From the NCBI GenBank assembly GCA_039028935.1, contig JBCCHD010000034.1:1-41602 (forward strand): a stretch of DNA of 41,602 nucleotides. Reading direction: 5' to 3'. The notes below the pieces were generated by a model. The model saw only the letters and a program-made list of their open reading frames with translations. It was not told where the DNA came from and searched no databases. Shown piece after piece: positions 8,632 through 20,078 of the stretch. A program made the position numbers and the translations under genes. Position 1 is the first letter of the stretch, and every line of letters begins with the position of its first letter. The stretch is from Pseudomonadota bacterium (GTDB lineage: Bacteria > Pseudomonadota > Gammaproteobacteria > Steroidobacterales > SZUA-146).

Positions 8632-9024
8632 TCAAAGCAAGCCGTTTTCCTCGAGCACTTTGCGTGCCACGCGAAAGCACTCCAGTGCGGCAGGTACACC
8701 CGCATAGATACCCACCACGTGGATGATCGCGCGAATCTGTTCGGGCGTGACGCCATTGGTCAGCGCGCCGCGACAGTGAATTTCCCACTCGTGCATTTTG
8801 CCTAGCGCGCCGATCATGGCGAGATTCATCATGGATCGGGTCTTCTCATCGATGGCGTCATCGCCCCATCCGAATCCCCAACACCAAGCGGTCATGGCTT
8901 CCTGAAAGGGTCGCGTAAAGTCGTCGGCCGCGGCGAGGTTGTTTTCCACATACTCCGCACCCAGTGTGGCTTTGCGTTTCGTGAGACCGGTGTCAAAAAG
9001 GGTGTCCAATGACTGCTTGCTCAT
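8632..9024 (-). CDS. carboxymuconolactone decarboxylase family protein
   Basis: This 130-aa protein is of the AhpD/CMD fold, the size of PcaC-type gamma-carboxymuconolactone decarboxylases. The family signature is clear in the C-terminal half: KTRSMMNLAMIGAL, then EWEIHCRGALTNGVTPEQI, then YAGVPAALE. There is a single Cys in HCRGA and no CxxC pair, so it is not an AhpD-type peroxidase partner. True decarboxylases act in protocatechuate breakdown, but no other pca gene is present. Many family members have unknown roles, so I give only the family. It is transcribed away from the S9 peptidase gene, with 242 bp between the two starts. Confidence 0.88.
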   Translation of the reverse strand: MSKQSLDTLFDTGLTKRKATLGAEYVENNLAAADDFTRPFQEAMTAWCWGFGWGDDAIDEKTRSMMNLAMIGALGKMHEWEIHCRGALTNGVTPEQIRAIIHVVGIYAGVPAALECFRVARKVLEENGLL

Positions 9025-11532: not shown

Positions 11533-12633
11533 CTAGCTGTCGGCCGGCAGCCCTTGTTGATACCAATCATGCAACGCGCGAATGGAATGTTCAGAGCGCA
11601 CGCCGCCGGCGGGATCGAGCACGAGCGGCCCCGGCCGATAGCCGCGGCTATTGAGGCCGCGCTGCACGGATTCAACAAGACGTATGTCTTCGGCCACGGT
11701 CGTGTCGCGGTCCTGAATGGCCAATTGTCGAGCCACGTCGGGATCGATGTGGCCACCTTCATACCATCCGCGAATCACGTCAACGCGGGCTTCGCCCAGG
11801 TCGCGCCAGTGGTAGGTGTTGAGCACGTTTCCGGGGTACACCTGAAACGAAAACATGGGCCATAAGAACCATGAAGAGTAGTTGCCGGCTTTTGCGTGGC
11901 CGTCCAGATCGATCGGGTAGGTCATGCTGTCGAGGTTTTGGCATTCGGTCGTGTGGCGCAGGCAATGACCTTGCGGCTGGATGTCGTAGGTTGATGGCTT
12001 GACCACCCCCTTGGAAAAGGTCGGGTGATTGCGTTCGCAGTGGTAACACTCCGAGTAGTTTTCGATCGACACTTTCCAGTTGCAGTCTTCCGCGACACTG
12101 ACCCATTGCTGGAGTTTGAGTTGGTCAAGATGCGGCACATACGCACTGAGCTCGTCCCGCACACCAGGAAACCACTCATCCATCGGGCGCGCATTCTCAT
12201 CGAGATTCACAAACACAAAGCCCAAAAAGATCTCGGTGCGAACAGACGTCAAACAGATCTGGCTTTTGTCAAAGCCCGGGGTCACGTTAATGTTGGGACC
12301 GGCGCGAAGTTCACCGCTCAGTTCGTATGTCCAGGCGTGATACGGGCACACAAGCAGACGGGCGTTGCCATTGCCGTTGACCAGCTCGTGGGCGCGATGC
12401 TGGCACACGTTGTAGAACGTATTGATCTGGTTATCTTTACCGCGAACGCAAAACAGCGCTTGGCCGGCCACCGTAAAGCTCACATAGTCGCCCGGCTTGG
12501 TTAATTCGCTCTCGTGTGCGGCAAACTGCCAGGTGGAGGCCAGCACCGTATTTTTTTCCAGCGCGTACACATCCGGATCGGTGTAGTACCGGGCCGCCAG
12601 TGCTTTGCGTGGTTCGGTGGGCGAATGGTTCAT
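11533..12633 (-). CDS. Rieske non-heme iron oxygenase, betaine/carnitine demethylase type alpha subunit
   Basis: It is predicted to hydroxylate an N-methyl group or C-N bond with O2 and electrons from a reductase, releasing formaldehyde or a cleaved amine. The Rieske cluster ligands are C77, H79, C96 and H99 (CQH, 16 residues, CPYH). The mononuclear iron site is in ENYSECYHCERNH: H198, H203 and later D316 in AEDIRLVESVQRG. The bridging residue between subunits is E195 where naphthalene dioxygenase has Asp. Glu at this place is known for carnitine monooxygenase CntA, and the ENYxECYHC pattern is shared with glycine-betaine and proline-betaine oxygenases. Length is 366 aa. Its ATG overlaps the stop of the upstream RpiR gene (ATGA), so the two are translationally coupled. 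No reductase partner lies in the window. The substrate is inferred only as a quaternary amine. Confidence 0.93.
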   Translation of the reverse strand: MNHSPTEPRKALAARYYTDPDVYALEKNTVLASTWQFAAHESELTKPGDYVSFTVAGQALFCVRGKDNQINTFYNVCQHRAHELVNGNGNARLLVCPYHAWTYELSGELRAGPNINVTPGFDKSQICLTSVRTEIFLGFVFVNLDENARPMDEWFPGVRDELSAYVPHLDQLKLQQWVSVAEDCNWKVSIENYSECYHCERNHPTFSKGVVKPSTYDIQPQGHCLRHTTECQNLDSMTYPIDLDGHAKAGNYSSWFLWPMFSFQVYPGNVLNTYHWRDLGEARVDVIRGWYEGGHIDPDVARQLAIQDRDTTVAEDIRLVESVQRGLNSRGYRPGPLVLDPAGGVRSEHSIRALHDWYQQGLPADS

Positions 12634-13517
12634 GCGTCCTCATCATCCACGTAAACGCCAAGCTCAGTGCGGCGGGCGTGGAACTGTTCGATCTTGTCAA
12701 CGACGTCGGGGTCAGCTTCGGCGATGACAAACGCCATGAGCGTTTCCAATAACGCACTTGTGGCGAGCGTCGATGTAAAAAACTGCGGTGTTTGCGTTTG
12801 TACCACAAAGCGTATGGGGCTACCCATGACCACAGGCGACGCCGGACTGTCTGAAATACCGATGACTTGGACACCGCGGGCGCGCGCTAATTTAACCGCG
12901 CTGAGAACTTCCGCTCGGTAGGGTTTGAATGTCATCACGAGCAACACGTCTTCTGGCCCCGCGCGCGCAATGTCGTCGGTCGCGAGCTGTCCGGCGCGTG
13001 GGATGGCGTGCACGTTGTCGAGGGCCATGTCGGCAAGATAGGCAAACTGGCGGGCTAGCGTGTGGTTGATGCCCACGCCGAGCACAAAGGTATGGCGGGC
13101 ACCGATGATCGCGTCGGCGGCGACCTTAATATCCGGCGCGCCAGTTGCCGCGAACGTGCGCTGTAGGTTATGCATAGCGGAATCGGCCATCGCGGCGTAG
13201 AGACCGTCAAGACGACTGTTTTGCGCAAGCGACTGCAACCAACGGGCGCGGTCGGGGAAACTTAAGCCTCCGCGTCGAAGCTCCTCACGAAACGGGGCGC
13301 GAAACTCATCGTAGCCGCTGTAGCCGCACGCCCGAGATAAACGCACTAAAGTGTTGGGTTTGACGGCCGCCAGGCCCGCTAATTCGCGAATGGAGCTCAC
13401 GCCAACATCATTAGGATTTTCAAGGGCATACACCGCTGCTTTGTGAAGCTCGGGGGTCATTTCCGGAAGCTGCACAAAGAGTTCTCTGAGCGTATCGTCG
13501 AGCGTGGCGGTGGTCAT
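12630..13517 (-). CDS. RpiR/MurR-family transcriptional regulator
   Basis: This 295-aa DNA-binding regulator has an N-terminal HTH_6 domain (about residues 1-80; SIRELAGLAAVKPNTLVRLSR is the helix-turn-helix region). A C-terminal SIS domain follows (about 120-260; VLGVGINHTLARQFAYLAD, then VLLVMTFKPYRAEVL). SIS domains usually bind phosphosugars, but RpiR members also control other catabolic operons. I choose the ATG at 13517 because it gives the usual family length. The frame stays open further upstream but would run into the divergent promoter and the next gene. It stands between the Rieske gene (ATGA overlap) and the divergent flavoprotein operon, and two near-identical 17-bp repeats lie in the shared promoter region. 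The simplest reading is that it autoregulates and controls both directions. Inducer unknown. Confidence 0.93.
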   Translation of the reverse strand: MTTATLDDTLRELFVQLPEMTPELHKAAVYALENPNDVGVSSIRELAGLAAVKPNTLVRLSRACGYSGYDEFRAPFREELRRGGLSFPDRARWLQSLAQNSRLDGLYAAMADSAMHNLQRTFAATGAPDIKVAADAIIGARHTFVLGVGINHTLARQFAYLADMALDNVHAIPRAGQLATDDIARAGPEDVLLVMTFKPYRAEVLSAVKLARARGVQVIGISDSPASPVVMGSPIRFVVQTQTPQFFTSTLATSALLETLMAFVIAEADPDVVDKIEQFHARRTELGVYVDDEDA

Positions 13518-13553
13518 CGTCGTGAATGGCTGCCTTGTGACTGTCCCGTAAAA

Positions 13554-13600
13554 GTACAAATGTTTTATTATTCGTTGACAATGGTACAAATGTTCTATTA
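13554..13600. promoter_or_regulatory. twin 17-bp direct repeats, candidate operators of the RpiR regulator
   Basis: GTACAAATGTTTTATTA (13554-13570) and GTACAAATGTTCTATTA (13584-13600) match at 16 of 17 positions and begin exactly 30 bp apart, about three helical turns. Both contain ACA-AA-TGT, a small inverted repeat. They lie in the 127-bp gap between the divergent RpiR and flavoprotein genes. The right copy covers the -35/-10 spacer and -10 of the plus-strand promoter. The left copy would overlap a possible minus-strand -10. This placement suits repression of both directions by a cooperatively bound regulator. Confidence 0.75.
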
Positions 13601-13601
13601 G
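13575..13601 (+). promoter_or_regulatory. candidate sigma-70 promoter of the flavoprotein operon
   Basis: A consensus -35 box TTGACA (13575-13580) is followed after 15 bp by TATTAG (13596-13601) as a possible -10. The spacing is short but workable. The start of transcription would fall near 13608, leaving a leader of about 37 nt before the GTG start at 13645. The box sits between, and partly inside, the twin repeats. Confidence 0.5.
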
Positions 13602-13644
13602 CGTGTCCAGGTGGCAGCAAGCGTAGCGGCAGGAGTTTTCGCGG

Positions 13645-16116
13645 GTGAGTGAACACAACGGTAAGTCGGTGCCATCGCAGGCACGCGTCGTGATTGTGGG
13701 TGGCGGCATTATGGGGTGTGGGCTTGCCTACCATTTGGCACACGCCGGCTGGACAGACATCGTGTTGCTGGAGAAAGCCGCGCTCACATCGGGTTCGACT
13801 TGGCACGCCGCTGGGCAGATCACCCACTCCACATCGAGCTATGGGCTGGGTCGGTGTGTCGATTACAACATCGGCTTGTACTCGGGCTTGTTGGAAGAAG
13901 AAACCGGGCAATCGGTCACCTGGCATGGTTGCGGATCGCTGCGCCTGGCCTACACCGACGACGAAATGGACTGGTTGCGCCACACCATGAGTGTCGGCAG
14001 CTCATTAGGTTTTCCGATGGAGATGGTGGGCCCGCAGCGCATTCGTCAATTGCATCCGTTTTACAACCTCGACGGCGTTCAGGGCGCGCTGCATACGCCT
14101 GAGGATGGTCATGTCGACCCGTCAGGCGTGACGCAGGCGTTGGCCAAAGGTGCGCGACAACTTGGTGCGCGCATCGTGACGCGTTGTCGCGCCACCAATA
14201 TCACGCGTACCGCAAATGGCGAATGGCAGGTGGATACCGAGCGCGGGTCAATCCGTTGCGAGCACGTCGTTAACGCTGGCGGCACCTATGCGCGACAGAT
14301 GGGTGAGTGGTCTGGGCTACAGCTGCCCATGACGTCCATGACCCATCACTATTTAATCACCGATACGGTTCCACAGTTTGTTGACCTGGAGCACGAGTTG
14401 CCGGTAGTGCGCGACGACCGCTTGGTGTCCGGCTACATTCGCATGGAGCAAAAGTCAGGCCTTATCGGTATCTATGAAAAAACCGATCCCAACACCGTGT
14501 GGGAAACGCATTGTCCGTGGGAGGCTGAGAACGAGCTTTTTGAAGCGGACTACGACCGCATTATGCCGTGGTTGGAGAACGCCATGGATCGGATGCCGAT
14601 TTTGGCCGAAGTGGGCATTAAGCAGGATGTGCATGGGGCGATTTCCCATCCGCCTGACGGTAATCCACTTATCGGTCCAGTCGGTGGTGCACCCAATTAT
14701 TGGTGTTGCTGTGGCACGCAGATCGGCATCGGCTGGGGGCCGGGTCTCACGCGCGAACTGGCAGCTTGGATGGTCCATGGCGCCGCCAACATCTCGATGC
14801 GCGAGTTCGATCCGCGGCGATTTGGCGACTACGCCACACCCGACTGGCAGATTGTGAAGGCCAAAGAAGACTACTGTCTGCGACACGAAATTCCGTTTCC
14901 TCACTTTAACCGCCTTGAAGGACGGCCGATCAAACCAAGTCCGATGTATGACGTGTTGAAAGACAAAGGCGCGGTGTTTGAAGAGGTGTTTGGTCATGAG
15001 CGGCCGCGTTGGTTTGCACCAGCGGGTACCGAACCGGTGGACCAATATTCGTTTCAGCGCAACGCTGTACATGACATTGTGGCGGCTGAAGTGGCTGGCG
15101 TTCGCGAGCGCGTCGGGATCATGGATATCACCGCGTTTGCCAAGGTCGAAGTCGCCGGTCCTGAAGCGGCGAAATTTCTCGATGCGCTGATTGCGAATCG
15201 CTTGCCGAGCAAGGTGGGCGGTATTATTTTGACGCACCTTCTCAGTGACGCCGGCCGCATTGAACTCGAGCTCACTATTGCGCGTCTCGAAGACGCTCGT
15301 TACTACCTCACCTGCGCCGCGTTTTTCGAACAGCGATTGCTCGATCATCTGCATCGCTTTGAGCCCGGTCCAGACGTCGACATCATCAATCGCTCAAGCA
15401 CCTGGTCGGCGTTGGCGCTGCAGGGACCGAGAAGTCGAAGCGTGTTGGCCGATAACACCTCGTCCGATTTGAGTAACGCGGGTTTTCGCTGGCTAACAGC
15501 ACAAGAGATTTCGGTGGCGGGCCATCCGCTTTGGGCATTGAGACTGTCGTACGCGGGGGAACTTGGTTGGGAACTGCATGGACCGCGCGAATCGATGGGC
15601 GCGGTGTACACCGCGTTAGCCGATTCTGGAGTGCCACACGGAATGGTCGACTACGGCTCGTTCGCGATGAATGTCATGCGTATGGAGAAGGGATTCAAAG
15701 GGGCCGGCGAACTCACCAATGAGGTGACACTGCCCGAAGCCGATGTCATGCGGTTTGTGAAACTCGACAAACCGACGTTCGTTGGCAAAGCGGCGACGGA
15801 GCGCAGTGCCGCAGATGCCAATCCGCCATGGCGATGCGTGTATTTAGGCATCGATCCACCCACGGATTCTGCACTCATGAGCGATGGACACGGTGGCGAG
15901 GCGGTACTACTTAATGGTCAGGCGGTCGGCTCGACAAGCTCCATGGTGTTTGGCCACTCGGTGGGTATGGGCCTCGCGTTCGCCTACGTCAAACCCGATG
16001 CGGCACGTCCTGGCACCGAGCTTGAGGTGCTGATTATGAACGAACGCCGCGCTGCGCGTGTTCTCGATAAGCCTGCGTATGATGCCGAGAGCCTGTTGCC
16101 CCGTGTGGATGGCTAG
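13645..16116 (+). CDS. dimethylglycine/sarcosine dehydrogenase-like FAD oxidoreductase with GcvT (folate) domain
   Basis: It is predicted to oxidise an N-methyl group of a tertiary or secondary amine with FAD and pass the one-carbon unit to tetrahydrofolate. At 823 aa it has the two-part layout of DMGDH. The N-terminal DAO domain has the FAD dinucleotide motif GGGIMG (19-24), E43 at the end of the second strand, and GSTWHAAG, in which H54 matches the histidine that carries covalent FAD in mammalian DMGDH. From about residue 430 a GcvT/aminomethyltransferase domain follows (MDITAFAKVEVAGPEA, LSYAGELGWELH, the C-terminal barrel). It starts with GTG, and AGGAG at 13631-13635 supports this start with a 9-base spacing. 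It heads the operon opposite the RpiR gene. Its true substrate may be an N-methylated product of the Rieske oxygenase rather than dimethylglycine. Confidence 0.94.
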   Translation: MSEHNGKSVPSQARVVIVGGGIMGCGLAYHLAHAGWTDIVLLEKAALTSGSTWHAAGQITHSTSSYGLGRCVDYNIGLYSGLLEEETGQSVTWHGCGSLRLAYTDDEMDWLRHTMSVGSSLGFPMEMVGPQRIRQLHPFYNLDGVQGALHTPEDGHVDPSGVTQALAKGARQLGARIVTRCRATNITRTANGEWQVDTERGSIRCEHVVNAGGTYARQMGEWSGLQLPMTSMTHHYLITDTVPQFVDLEHELPVVRDDRLVSGYIRMEQKSGLIGIYEKTDPNTVWETHCPWEAENELFEADYDRIMPWLENAMDRMPILAEVGIKQDVHGAISHPPDGNPLIGPVGGAPNYWCCCGTQIGIGWGPGLTRELAAWMVHGAANISMREFDPRRFGDYATPDWQIVKAKEDYCLRHEIPFPHFNRLEGRPIKPSPMYDVLKDKGAVFEEVFGHERPRWFAPAGTEPVDQYSFQRNAVHDIVAAEVAGVRERVGIMDITAFAKVEVAGPEAAKFLDALIANRLPSKVGGIILTHLLSDAGRIELELTIARLEDARYYLTCAAFFEQRLLDHLHRFEPGPDVDIINRSSTWSALALQGPRSRSVLADNTSSDLSNAGFRWLTAQEISVAGHPLWALRLSYAGELGWELHGPRESMGAVYTALADSGVPHGMVDYGSFAMNVMRMEKGFKGAGELTNEVTLPEADVMRFVKLDKPTFVGKAATERSAADANPPWRCVYLGIDPPTDSALMSDGHGGEAVLLNGQAVGSTSSMVFGHSVGMGLAFAYVKPDAARPGTELEVLIMNERRAARVLDKPAYDAESLLPRVDG

Positions 16117-16222
16117 CGTAAGCGCGGAAGCGGCTCGCTTGGCATGCCAACGACCCGTAGCGCTTGCTGTTGCCGCCACACCCGATTATTTTTAATGGCC
16201 TTCATGCAGGGATAACAACACG

Positions 16223-17323
16223 ATGCAACAGACCGTCCCACCCACCATGCAGGCCATGCTGCTGACCGGACACGGCGGCTACGACAAACTCGTTTTTCGT
16301 GACGACGTGCCAACGCCTGTGCCCATGGCCGGTGAAGTGCTCATTCAGGTGCACGCCTGTGGGCTGAACAATACCGATATCAACACGCGCACAGCGTGGT
16401 ATTCAAAAGGCGTTACCTCAAACACGAGCGATACCGCTCAGGATAACGCCGACGATGAGGATGCGGGGTGGGGCGGCACATCGATTACGTTCCCACGTAT
16501 TCAAGGTGCCGACGTGGCCGGTACTGTCGTCGCGCTGGGCGAAGGTGCCAACCCGTCGCTGCTTGGCCAACGGGTCATGATTGATACCTGGCTTAGAGAT
16601 TGGGATCACCCCCTTGATATGAATCGCACCGGCTACTACGGCAGCGAACTCGATGGTGGGTATGCGCAGTACACGAAAATCGATCAGCGCCATGTTCACG
16701 TGGTGGATTGCGCGCTGAGTCACGCCGAACTTGCGACCTTCGCGACGTCGTACATCACGGCAGAAAACATGCTGGAACGCGCAAACGTTGCAGACGGTGA
16801 CACAGTGTTGGTGACCGGTGCGTCGGGTGGTGTGGGTTCGGCGCTTATTCAATTGGCGCATCGTCGTGGCGCGCGCGTGGTGGCGTTGAGCGGCGAGAGC
16901 AAGCACGAACAGCTCGCCGCGTTGAACCCGGCGGCCATTCTGCCACGCTCGCCCGTTCATTTAGCGGACGCCCTGGAGGACGCGCTTGGCGTGCGCAGCG
17001 TCAGTGTGGTGGCGGACGTCGTGGGCGGAATGCTGTTTGGTCAGCTCATCGACGCGCTGGATCGCGGCGGGCGTTTCACGTGCGCTGGCGCCATCGCCGG
17101 GCCGATTGTCGAATTTGACTTACGTACGTTTTATTTAAAAGACCTGACCTTTACCGGCGCCACAATTGTTCCGCCGGGCTTATTTGCGCGACTAGTGTCG
17201 TACATTGAGCGCGGCGAGGTGCAGCCGCTGCTGGCCAAGACTTTCCCGCTGCAGGCGCTACATGAGGCTCAAAAAGCGTTTGTGGCGAAAGAACACCTCG
17301 GAAACATAGTGGTTGAGCCGTGA
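16223..17323 (+). CDS. zinc-independent MDR (quinone oxidoreductase-like) dehydrogenase/reductase
   Basis: This 366-aa protein is of the medium-chain dehydrogenase/reductase superfamily. The GroES-like N-terminus is visible (AGEVLIQVHACGLNNTDI, then IQGADVAGTVVALGEG). The Rossmann part has VTGASGGVGSALIQLAHRRGA for NADPH. I do not see the four-cysteine structural zinc lobe of zinc alcohol dehydrogenases, and the NNTDI segment is of the quinone-reductase type. An insertion rich in Thr, Asp and Ser near residues 58-80 separates the first motifs. It lies 106 bp after the flavoprotein and overlaps the next gene by four bases (GTGA), so it is part of the operon. It probably reduces or oxidises a carbonyl or enone intermediate; the substrate is not known. 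Confidence 0.88.
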   Translation: MQQTVPPTMQAMLLTGHGGYDKLVFRDDVPTPVPMAGEVLIQVHACGLNNTDINTRTAWYSKGVTSNTSDTAQDNADDEDAGWGGTSITFPRIQGADVAGTVVALGEGANPSLLGQRVMIDTWLRDWDHPLDMNRTGYYGSELDGGYAQYTKIDQRHVHVVDCALSHAELATFATSYITAENMLERANVADGDTVLVTGASGGVGSALIQLAHRRGARVVALSGESKHEQLAALNPAAILPRSPVHLADALEDALGVRSVSVVADVVGGMLFGQLIDALDRGGRFTCAGAIAGPIVEFDLRTFYLKDLTFTGATIVPPGLFARLVSYIERGEVQPLLAKTFPLQALHEAQKAFVAKEHLGNIVVEP

Positions 17324-18444
17324 GTTCGCGCGATTCGATCATCGAGCGCGTGACCGTTTGGCATAAAGTGCTGCCGCTCACACATCCGTACGCTCTATCG
17401 GGTGGCCGCTTGCGGGTAGAGGCGCTCGATTCGACGATCGTGCGCGTGGAGTGCGCTGACGGACTGAGCGGCTGGGGTGAGGGTTGTCCGTGGGGGCACA
17501 CGTATCTTCCTGCATTTGGGCCCGGACTGCGTGCCGCGATTGAATTATTGGTACCGGTATTGATTGGCGCCGATGCGCGCGGCATCGATGTGCTCAATCG
17601 GGCGATGGACGTTCAGCTCCCGGGCCATCTGTATGCCAAGTCGCCGCTGGATATTGCGTTGTGGGATATCGCTGCGAAACGCGCCGGCGTACCGCTCTAC
17701 ACGCTGCTCGGTGGCGCAGATGGTGACGCCGTCGAGATTAATTCCTCGATTTCTAGCGGCACGCCCGACGAGATGATCGCTCATATTCAAACCGCACGTG
17801 ACCAAGGCTATCGCACGCACTCGGCCAAAATCGGTGGCTCGGATGCCGCGCTGGATATCGCTCGCATCAACGCGATCGACGCCTTCACGCAAGACGACGA
17901 GCACGTGACCTTTGATGTGAATCGGGCTTGGATGCCGGCAACCGCCATTGAAGTCATGAATTCCGTCACGACACAAGAGTGGTTCGAGCAACCTTGCGAC
18001 ACGCTAACGCAGTGCGAAAGCGTCGCGCACAATACAACGCAAAAAATCATGCTCGATGAGTGCTTACACACGTTTGATGATCATCTGCGCGCGTGGCGAC
18101 AAGCTGTCTGCCAAGGCGTGAAGGTCAAACCCAACCGGCTGGGCGGCATCACGAAGGCGCGTCAAGTGCGCGACTTTGGGGTGAGTGTCGGTTGGCAAAT
18201 GCATGTGGAGGATTTGGGTGGCACTGTCTTAGCGGACACCGCCGCGATGCATTTGGCGTGGTCGACGCCCGCGCCCAATCGATTGGCGTCTTGGCTAAGT
18301 CACGCACACCTGACCGATGATTATTTGCCGGGTCAGGGTGCCCGCGCGGTGGGCGGTCACATCCAGCTCGCACCTGAGCCGGGTTTGGGAATTGCGCCAC
18401 CAGAGGACTGGCTTGGCGAACCCTTTGCCGTCCATGTACGTTAA
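17320..18444 (+). CDS. enolase-superfamily enzyme (MLE group), hydroxyproline-betaine epimerase-like
   Basis: This 374-aa enzyme is of the mandelate racemase / muconate lactonizing group, which abstracts the proton next to a carboxylate with Mg2+ help. Metal ligands are D199 (FDVNR), E223 (FEQPC) and D246 (LDEC). Candidate general bases are K170 (SAKIGG) on one face and K270 (KVKPNRLGG) on the other, so it could act on both faces as an epimerase or racemase. The first Lys of the usual KxK motif is Ser168. From memory, the same pattern (x-x-KIGG, EQPCNTL, MKLTRIGG) occurs in the 4-hydroxyproline betaine 2-epimerase HpbD and in cis-3-hydroxyproline dehydratases. The GHLYAKSPLDIA segment also fits that group. 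It starts with GTG inside the stop of the previous gene, so it is translationally coupled. Function as a betaine or imino-acid epimerase or dehydratase is inference. Confidence 0.85.
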   Translation: MSSRDSIIERVTVWHKVLPLTHPYALSGGRLRVEALDSTIVRVECADGLSGWGEGCPWGHTYLPAFGPGLRAAIELLVPVLIGADARGIDVLNRAMDVQLPGHLYAKSPLDIALWDIAAKRAGVPLYTLLGGADGDAVEINSSISSGTPDEMIAHIQTARDQGYRTHSAKIGGSDAALDIARINAIDAFTQDDEHVTFDVNRAWMPATAIEVMNSVTTQEWFEQPCDTLTQCESVAHNTTQKIMLDECLHTFDDHLRAWRQAVCQGVKVKPNRLGGITKARQVRDFGVSVGWQMHVEDLGGTVLADTAAMHLAWSTPAPNRLASWLSHAHLTDDYLPGQGARAVGGHIQLAPEPGLGIAPPEDWLGEPFAVHVR

Positions 18445-18457
18445 TGCGGAGTGAATT

Positions 18458-19756
18458 ATGAGCAGCAAGCCGATCAATCCCACCTTAGCTGAACAGGTAT
18501 TGGACCAAGCCCATCAAACCCTCCCCGCGGGCGGTTTTGGTAATTTCGATCCGGGCGTCGTGATCAGTTACGGCAAAGGCAGCCGCGTGTGGGACATCCA
18601 TGGCACGGAGTATGTCGATTTTCTGATTGGCTCTGGTCCGATGCTGGTCGGGCATTCTCACCCTGAAGTGGTCGCGGTGATTCAAGAGCAAGCGGCGCGA
18701 GGACAGACGTTCTTTACCAGTAATCCGCTGGGTATTGAGCTGTCAGGAGCGATTTGTAATGCGATGGCGTGCGCCGATCAGGTGCGGTTTGTTAGCAGTG
18801 GCGGCGAAGCCGATATGTACGCGATGCGGCTCGCACGGGCCTTTACCGGCCGCGACAAAGTTCTCAAATTTGAGGGCGGTTATCACGGTATGTCCGGTGA
18901 AGCGCTGATGAGTTTGTTTCCGACCGAGGCCGCCGACTTACCCAATGCCCAAGCGGATAGCGCTGGCATTCCGGATGCCGTCGCTCGTGAGATGCTCATT
19001 GCGCCTTACAACGATCTTGACTACGTCGAGCGTCTGGTCGCGGAACACGGTCAGGATATCGCTTGTATTTTGGTCGAGCCGCTACAGCGTATTGTGCCGC
19101 CCGCGCCCGGCTTTTTGGCAGGGCTGCGCGCACTCTCAGACCGTGCGGGCATCGTGCTTGTTTTCGACGAGGTGGTCACAGGCTTTCGCCTAGCCTATGG
19201 GGGCGCGCAAGCGCATTATGGCGTGGTGCCCGATTTGTGCACGTTGGGCAAGATCATCGGCGGCGGCTTGCCGCTGGCGGCCGTAGCGGGCCGCGCCGAC
19301 ATTATGGCGCATTTTGACAAAGCCAAAGTCGGTGCTAAGGGGTTCACGCTGCAAATCGGTACGCTGAGCGGTAACCCGTTGGCGTCGGCGGCGGGCCTAA
19401 AAACCATGGAGATTCTGTCGCGCGAGGGGATGTACGAACGATTGCGTGCCAACGGTCAGCGTGTCATCGATGCGGCGACCCGCGCCTTGAACGAGCATGG
19501 TATTGCCCATCAGATAGTGGGTGATCCCGTGCTGTTTGACATCGTCTTTACCGATCAACCCGTGACCAACTATCGGCACACGATTAGTGGGAACGCCCAG
19601 CAGGCCGCGGTGTTTAACACCGAGCTTCGACAGCGCGGCATACTTAAATCGCCGACCAAGTTTTACGCGTCGGTATCGCTTACAGAGGACGATCTTGAGC
19701 GCACCGAACGGGCGTTGCGCGGTGCGGCCGAGGCGATTGCGGCACAGCATTTATGA
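18458..19756 (+). CDS. class III PLP-dependent aminotransferase (GSA-aminomutase-like)
   Basis: This 432-aa fold-type I PLP enzyme resembles glutamate-1-semialdehyde aminomutase and related class III aminotransferases. Visible motifs are VWDIHGTEYVDF, GHSHPEV, SSGGEADMYAMRLARAFTGR (PLP phosphate region), FEGGYHG, VFDEVVTGFR (Asp to the pyridine nitrogen) and the Schiff-base lysine K265 in LGKIIGGGLPLAA. A good ribosome-binding site (GGAG at 18448-18451) stands six bases before the ATG. It lies 13 bp after the enolase-family gene. The heme-pathway HemL is not the best reading, because the gene sits in a catabolic operon. It more likely removes or moves an amino group from a demethylated intermediate. 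Substrate and acceptor are unknown. Confidence 0.9.
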   Translation: MSSKPINPTLAEQVLDQAHQTLPAGGFGNFDPGVVISYGKGSRVWDIHGTEYVDFLIGSGPMLVGHSHPEVVAVIQEQAARGQTFFTSNPLGIELSGAICNAMACADQVRFVSSGGEADMYAMRLARAFTGRDKVLKFEGGYHGMSGEALMSLFPTEAADLPNAQADSAGIPDAVAREMLIAPYNDLDYVERLVAEHGQDIACILVEPLQRIVPPAPGFLAGLRALSDRAGIVLVFDEVVTGFRLAYGGAQAHYGVVPDLCTLGKIIGGGLPLAAVAGRADIMAHFDKAKVGAKGFTLQIGTLSGNPLASAAGLKTMEILSREGMYERLRANGQRVIDAATRALNEHGIAHQIVGDPVLFDIVFTDQPVTNYRHTISGNAQQAAVFNTELRQRGILKSPTKFYASVSLTEDDLERTERALRGAAEAIAAQHL

Positions 19757-19760
19757 TGTC

Positions 19761-20078
19761 ATGAAGCTGGCCTACACCAATGCCAATCGCATGATGGTAC
19801 TCAACGTGCAAAACTTGCTTGAGCGCGAAGGGATTAAAACCTTGCTGAGAAACGAGTATGCCGTTGGCGCGATGGGGGAGATTTCGCCCTTTGAGGTTTG
19901 GCTCGAAGTGTGGGTATTTAATCAAGCCGATTACAATCGGGCCCGCACGCTCGTGTCGACCTCGATCAGCGATTCGCACGCGCCCGAGTGGCTGTGCCAC
20001 GAATGTGGCGAGCGCAACGATCCGTCATTCGATTTTTGCTGGAACTGTCAGACCGACGCGCGCGCCTCGCGATCGTGA
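19761..20078 (+). CDS. DUF2007-like protein with C-terminal zinc ribbon
   Basis: This 105-aa protein starts at the ATG at 19761, four bases after the aminotransferase stop. The N-terminal 65 residues (MKLAYTNANRMMVLNVQNLL, then an acidic beta-rich part) look like the DUF2007 / putative signal transducing protein fold, as seen in small PII-like regulators. The C-terminus has CHECGERNDPSFDFCWNC, four cysteines arranged as a RanBP2-like zinc ribbon. No function can be assigned. The tight spacing suggests co-transcription with the catabolic genes, but such genes are widespread and this may be only a neighbour. Confidence 0.75.
   Translation: MKLAYTNANRMMVLNVQNLLEREGIKTLLRNEYAVGAMGEISPFEVWLEVWVFNQADYNRARTLVSTSISDSHAPEWLCHECGERNDPSFDFCWNCQTDARASRS

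Follow-up and report, generated by a model that had tools for sequence, protein, structure and literature searches.

The gene set described here lies in a stretch of 41,602 nucleotides (the window) on contig JBCCHD010000034.1 of a gammaproteobacterium of the order Steroidobacterales (assembly GCA_039028935.1). By open reading frame (ORF) reading and family profile scans, six genes were identified, all of them open, intact and matching the families under which they are named below. They are organized in two divergent operons, as had been stated in a preliminary description made from this DNA alone.

11533-12633, minus strand: Rieske oxygenase, 366 amino acids (PF00355 and PF00848)
12630-13517, minus strand: RpiR/MurR-family regulator with SIS domain, 295 amino acids in the preferred form, ORF open from 13709 (PF01418, PF01380)
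13518-13644, no strand: divergent intergenic region of 127 bp with two direct repeats, candidate RpiR operator
13645-16116, plus strand: dimethylglycine dehydrogenase (DMGDH)-type flavoprotein with a fused GcvT folate domain, 823 amino acids (DAO, FAO_M, GCV_T, GCV_T_C)
16223-17323, plus strand: MDR-family reductase, 366 amino acids (PF08240, PF00107)
17320-18444, plus strand: MLE-type enolase-superfamily enzyme, subfamily A (enolase A), 374 amino acids (PF02746, PF13378)
18458-19756, plus strand: class III aminotransferase of the glutamate-1-semialdehyde (GSA) type, 432 amino acids (PF00202)

The RpiR and Rieske genes are joined by an ATGA overlap and the MDR and enolase genes by a GTGA overlap; 106 bp separate the DMGDH and MDR genes, and 13 bp the enolase and aminotransferase genes. 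Both overlaps and the 106-bp gap had been described correctly, but the 4-bp gap given with them separates the aminotransferase gene from a DUF2007 gene which is not a member of the set. For the regulator, a start at 13517 is the probable one, since the longer ORF from 13709 overlaps the DMGDH gene. In the region between the RpiR and DMGDH genes, near-identical direct repeats TACAAATGTTYTATTA were found at 13555-13570 and 13585-13600, which are a candidate operator for RpiR. The 16-mer recurs with up to four mismatches in 25 of 49 homologous intergenic regions and the 8-mer ACAAATGT in 33 of the 49, both being raw counts over related rows without a shuffle control.

For the Rieske oxygenase, the nearest solved chain is 6y8j, the oxygenase subunit of carnitine monooxygenase (E 2.1e-61), and the identity to E. 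coli YeaW is 33%. The CxH and CxxH motif, the mononuclear-iron ligands and a Glu at the place of the bridging Asp are intact and invariant in all 47 filtered rows, the window included. The Glu is also present in the two other Rieske proteins of the genome and is not specific to carnitine monooxygenase. An identity with glycine betaine monooxygenase GbcA was rejected, with 173.6 bits against an NCBIfam equivalog cut-off of 670. The nearest solved relatives of the flavoprotein are the dimethylglycine dehydrogenases 5l46 and 4p9s (E about 1e-155). The homology covers the flavin adenine dinucleotide (FAD) and GcvT parts at full length and includes the motif STWHAAG, presumably the site of flavin attachment, which is kept in 60 of 60 filtered rows; the window homologue differs in being clustered with an enolase and an aminotransferase. 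By homology, both enzymes are of N-demethylating kinds, in line with the earlier typing.

The nearest solved relative of the MDR protein is 4j6f, a 'putative alcohol dehydrogenase' (E 1.1e-95), and judged by its motif we read it as being of the quinone-oxidoreductase type. In the aminotransferase, the pyridoxal phosphate lysine motif LGKIIGG is kept, and its Lys is present in all 44 filtered rows. Its structure matches include the beta-transaminases 2yku and 4ao9, together with many other class III enzymes. Glutamate-1-semialdehyde aminomutase HemL was rejected for this protein (358.8 bits against an NCBIfam equivalog cut-off of 527.3).

Enolase A keeps K170/K270, D199/E223/D246 and W325, and neither the two catalytic lysines nor the metal-binding residues vary in any enolase row scored, after a length filter had removed 3 of 67 A, 1 of 43 B, 1 of 27 C and 1 of 12 D rows. 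The enzyme is 63% identical to 2QDD (518 bits), as compared to 31% for 4E8G (166 bits), which we take to be HpbD. It is also nearer to 3EEZ than to 4E8G; 3EEZ is represented among the relatives by a subfamily A2, with a best match of 92% in locus L168. The earlier label 'HpbD-like' is loose: the enolase shares the subgroup but has 2QDD as its nearest relative, and a closer 4E8G homologue (51%) is encoded elsewhere in the genome. W325 aligns with a Trp of 4E8G that presumably faces the quaternary nitrogen, and Trp is found here in 64 of 64 A and 23 of 23 A2 rows. In the tandem paralogues B, C and D of the relatives this position is Cys, Thr or Leu, and the position after it is Asp in all 79 rows (42, 26 and 11), as it is in 4MGG, by our assumption cis-3-hydroxyproline dehydratase. 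The Trp in A and the adjacent Asp in B, C and D suggest that enolase A may bind a quaternary form and the paralogues an amine. With 4MGG, enolase A shares the enolase fold and the Lys/Lys and Asp/Glu/Asp site, but the identity is 37%, and W325 replaces the Asp pattern common to 4MGG and enolases B, C and D. Cis-3-hydroxyproline dehydratase was rejected as an assignment for enolase A (272.4 bits, below the cut-off of 500). In the open literature searched, no paper on 2QDD was found.

Relatives of the set were collected by aligning the window enolase and 2QDD against a named genome collection; of 177 relatives, the best 80 were kept, 75 from Alphaproteobacteria, four from Gammaproteobacteria (L036, L042, L061, L089) and one from Gemmatimonadetes (L043). 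A locus comprised up to 10 kb on each side of the enolase; many of the 80 end at contig ends, and 41 have full flanks. Genes were counted as present at identity thresholds of 38-55%, depending on the gene, which were set by us after a looser first count. Co-occurrence of the homologues in other genomes, on which the preliminary description had let its proposal depend, was found: all six genes are present in 33 of the 41 loci with full flanks and in 44 of all 80, three of the 33 (L049, L060, L098) having another class III aminotransferase. Besides the enolase, which was the search query, no core gene is present in every locus; over the 80 loci, MDR was identified in 66, DMGDH in 65, the aminotransferase in 62, and Rieske and RpiR in 54 each. 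RpiR and DMGDH are divergent in 51 of 52 loci, Rieske adjoins RpiR in 49 of 50, and DMGDH adjoins MDR in 51 of 60. In two Mesorhizobium loci (L064, L067), the set is rearranged yet complete.

As a control, loci of 11-19 kb were taken around 20 of the 33 best paralogous enolase matches from other genomes of the window's order (36-39% identity), picked for contig size. At the same thresholds, Rieske, RpiR, DMGDH and aminotransferase genes were present in none of the 20. Below threshold, DMGDH-family matches of 25-40% were seen in L212, L214 and L215, and L214 also contains an MDR match of 51% and a DddQ-like match of 26%. The gene set is not a chance grouping.

Many of the relatives in marine Alphaproteobacteria carry additional tandem enolases and dddQ. 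Over the 80 loci, enolase B was counted in 48, C in 32, D in 12, an aldehyde dehydrogenase in 25 and DddQ in 19. The latter is a cupin of 200 amino acids (PF16867, 67 bits) whose solved relatives are dimethylsulfoniopropionate (DMSP) lyases, several of them named DddQ; in 18 of the 19 loci, no more than 150 bp separate its gene from a cluster gene of the same orientation. dddQ was also surveyed in the order to which L045 belongs (Pseudohalocynthiibacter; order taken as Rhodobacterales), where 41 of 292 genomes have a match at E <= 1e-15; 40 loci were compared. Both Rieske and DMGDH are present in 27 of the 40, and four contain only some of the cluster genes (L179, L188, L199, and L184, whose contig is 3.2 kb long). 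The remaining nine are without cluster genes over threshold, three of them with a DddQ identity of 41-48%. In L179 and L188 a short form was identified, consisting of RpiR, MDR, DddQ, enolase C, an A2-type enolase and the aminotransferase.

Locus L172 encodes the compared segment of 2QDD (364 residues) at 100% and that of 2RDX at 99.7%; both structures are, as we assume, from Roseovarius nubinhibens, and L172 is taken as this organism because it encodes their sequences. Two dddQ genes, the MDR and DMGDH genes, all four enolases (A to D) and the aminotransferase gene make up its operon; RpiR and Rieske are transcribed divergently from it, and the MDR homologue (62% identical) adjoins dddQ. The window has the same RpiR-Rieske pair divergent from DMGDH-MDR-enolase A-aminotransferase, whereas the two dddQ genes and enolases B, C and D are added in L172 and the window cluster has a single enolase. 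For R. nubinhibens, dddQ1, dddQ2 and the MDR028 gene ISM_14095 are reported in PMC3338564, a paper of 2012. In its available part, linkage of dddQ to an MDR028 gene is described for this organism and for R. pomeroyi, MDR028 gave no correction of acrylate sensitivity in E. coli, and the other cluster genes are not mentioned. In the genome of the window, the DddQ family PF16867 has no match at E <= 0.001.

The set is best read as a conserved gene cluster for the breakdown of a betaine in the wide sense, meaning a carboxylate with a methylated amine that is quaternary or tertiary; the cluster would have been gained from, or be shared with, marine Alphaproteobacteria. We regard this reading as probable. 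It is favoured because of the family assignments and the closest solved structures (carnitine monooxygenase, DMGDH, MLE enolase, MDR and GSA-type aminotransferase), and because of the co-conservation (33 of 41 loci against none of 20 in the control) together with the invariant motifs. It starts from what can be read directly, namely the genes, the kept catalytic motifs, the co-conservation and the divergent layout. The class of function named before, catabolism of quaternary amines (betaines), is likely right. In such a pathway, the RpiR regulator would sense a ligand and act on the two operons from the intergenic region between them. Enolase A would act at the alpha carbon, next to the carboxylate, while the betaine is still quaternary, either by epimerisation or by beta-elimination. 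The Rieske oxygenase would take off the first methyl group as formaldehyde, and the DMGDH/GcvT flavoprotein would move further methyl groups to tetrahydrofolate. The freed amine may be taken by the aminotransferase and an unsaturated or carbonyl product be reduced by the MDR enzyme, while a carboxymuconolactone-decarboxylase-like protein (CMD) encoded nearby could act downstream. Where dddQ occurs, its product would bring a further enzyme, a beta-eliminating lyase, into this operon. The sequence of events put forward earlier (two demethylations, epimerisation or dehydration, then removal of the amino group) is a hypothetical one.

Several observations weigh against this reading. Eight of the 41 loci with full flanks are without one or more partners: L044, L089, L105 and L109 have at most one of the five partner genes, L035 and L059 are without Rieske and RpiR, L063 without DMGDH and the aminotransferase, and L074 without Rieske. 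L109 and L111 have only Rieske and the enolase, and neither Rieske nor DMGDH was seen in the 18 kb inspected for each of L179 and L188. CntA-like Rieske enzymes are able to cleave C-N bonds instead of demethylating. The set encodes neither a transporter nor a dedicated Rieske reductase, and no match to YeaX was obtained in the genome at E <= 0.001; PF00970 has three matches in the genome, all outside the set. Since L179 and L188 are without Rieske and DMGDH there, N-demethylation looks like a detachable module; taken together with L109 and L111, these loci suggest that MDR, enolase and aminotransferase form a core to which demethylation is joined as a module. The Rieske and enolase A pair of L109 adjoins genes for an S/N-oxide reductase and a DoeA-like ectoine hydrolase, as scanned by family in this locus, and L111 shares the ORF clusters of L109. 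Such variant neighbourhoods (DoeA-like, S/N-oxide reductase, glutamine-synthetase-like) were dismissed as a substrate clue, being too scattered to name one, and the homarine literature searched gave no lead either.

Other genes of the same organism bear on the substrate. The 4E8G homologue is encoded on contig C1, away from the cluster, and a homologue of enolase D (59%) on contig C11. A second methyl-amine locus was observed on contig C42 (L127, 5798-15387), with a Rieske oxygenase, an aldehyde dehydrogenase, an MttB-type methyltransferase, B12-binding and pterin-binding proteins and a RACo-type activator; the methyltransferase matches TIGR02369 below its cut-off. This gene set resembles the cobalamin system for glycine betaine that is reported for R. 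pomeroyi in the available text of PMC12478193. Judged by these homologies, the organism probably handles (hydroxy)proline betaine and glycine betaine with genes located elsewhere. Because of the separate 4E8G homologue and the MttB/B12-type set of C42, the cluster studied here probably serves another substrate, and glycine betaine and (hydroxy)proline betaine are less likely as its substrates.

Among the more specific alternatives, a route for beta-betaines or betaine-lipid head groups is somewhat unlikely. Here the substrate, such as beta-alanine betaine or the head group of diacylglyceryl-hydroxymethyltrimethyl-beta-alanine (DGTA) or diacylglyceryl-trimethylhomoserine (DGTS), would carry its ammonium beta to the carboxylate, the enolases and DddQ would share a beta-elimination, and the aminotransferase would act on a beta-amino acid. 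The presence of DddQ, which is beta-eliminating on DMSP, in 19 of the 80 loci and of Rieske and DMGDH in 27 of the 40 dddQ-like loci is in favour of it, as are the matches to 2yku and 4ao9. However, GSA-type aminotransferases have a broad range, the window protein also matches many other class III enzymes, and the window's genome is without a DddQ family match. A route from carnitine or gamma-butyrobetaine is unlikely. The enolase would convert carnitine to crotonobetaine, MDR would reduce it, Rieske and DMGDH would yield gamma-aminobutyrate (GABA), the aminotransferase would form succinic semialdehyde, and an aldehyde dehydrogenase would end the route. For this, carnitine monooxygenase is the nearest solved relative of the Rieske protein, with homology to CntA/YeaW over the whole length, the same ligands and the same Glu; class III aminotransferases include GABA transaminases, and the aldehyde dehydrogenase of 25 of the 80 loci has betaine-aldehyde dehydrogenase as its best model, below its cut-off. 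On the other side, the identity to YeaW is only 33%, and the set is without a YeaX/CntB-like reductase. Moreover, R. pomeroyi CdhABC is reported to convert carnitine to glycine betaine, and the cluster is unmentioned in the available part of that report (PMC12478193), although the R. pomeroyi cluster may be a short form without Rieske and DMGDH.

An Hpb-type pathway for (hydroxy)proline betaine, in which the enolase would serve as an epimerase or racemase, is improbable. The subgroup shared with 4E8G and 4MGG and the Trp at the 4E8G position are consistent with it, and Rieske and flavin demethylases are used in this pathway too. But enolase A is nearer to 2QDD and 3EEZ, the genome has its own 4E8G homologue on another contig, and the pathway is not known to have a role for a GSA-type aminotransferase; the window set has this enzyme, MDR and CMD instead. 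That the neighbourhood is due to chance or purely regional, without a common pathway, is highly improbable. The CMD gene is set apart from the others in the window and eight of 41 relatives with full flanks are without members, but the 33 complete loci, the rearranged complete sets of Mesorhizobium and the empty control contradict it.

As to the origin of the cluster, the full-length enolase matches listed for the order's other 245 genomes do not exceed 41% identity, with some short ones at up to 42%, and two congeners have no enolase match. This restricted distribution fits a horizontal gain, but the congeners are fragmented drafts, 92% and 84% complete. Via the neighbouring Nei gene, no empty site was identified in the two congeners (no Nei match in G004, 49% in G019). 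In an enolase tree of 65 rows, the window falls into a supported trio with L034 (Alphaproteobacteria) and L036 (Gammaproteobacteria), on a long branch that leaves its placement unsure.

Two further genes lie at the edges of the set.

8632-9024, minus strand: CMD, carboxymuconolactone-decarboxylase-like protein, 130 amino acids (PF02627)
19761-20078: DUF2007 gene, starting 4 bp past the aminotransferase gene

The range 11533-20078 given in the preliminary description spans all six genes but omits the CMD gene to its left and includes DUF2007. A CMD homologue of 75-90% identity was identified in 34 of the 80 loci, and in the window's genome the CMD protein is the sole match. It directly adjoins Rieske in 7 of the 31 loci having both, and in the window an S9 peptidase gene separates the two. 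From this recurrence, CMD may be regarded as a seventh member of the set. DUF2007 was rejected as a member, having no homologue at E <= 1e-3 in the 80 named, 40 dddQ and 20 control loci (140 in total). Paralogous Peptidase_S9 genes (PF00326; 9267-11240 and 22029-24017), with 54% protein identity, flank the catabolic genes on both sides. In the relatives, a sulfotransferase-like gene is located beside the cluster in 14 of the 80 loci, and a weakly AMDase/EutA-like gene in 16 (ORF clusters c9 and c10, L034-L113).

In the open literature searched, no published pathway for the full gene set was found, in agreement with the preliminary description, whose author knew of none that combines these genes. 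In a subset of five papers, dddQ was never found together with mandelate racemase; dddQ and Rieske co-occur in one of them, PMC5068391, on methanesulfonate. The enzyme families are all known, and the combination and its substrate are not described as far as the searched literature shows. Tentatively, the cluster might represent an undescribed marine betaine pathway to which dddQ is a late or optional addition. The native task of DddQ would then be a beta-elimination on an intermediate or a sister compound of the N-methylated substrate, with DMSP lysis as a shared or side activity, and the tandem enolases would divide the work, with the quaternary form going to A and the demethylated amines to B, C and D.

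In the sea, carbon, nitrogen and sulfur circulate to a large part as betaines and DMSP, whose breakdown routes are only partly known. The gene set gives a shared pathway context to 2QDD and 2RDX, two enolase structures for which the search found no assigned function. The link to dddQ and the tandem enolases of the relatives are invisible from the single sequence, and the presence of dddQ in this operon in 27 of 40 loci was unexpected. Since the gene for a DMSP lyase, which releases the climate gas dimethyl sulfide, sits inside a methyl-amine operon, the native substrate of DddQ becomes directly testable.

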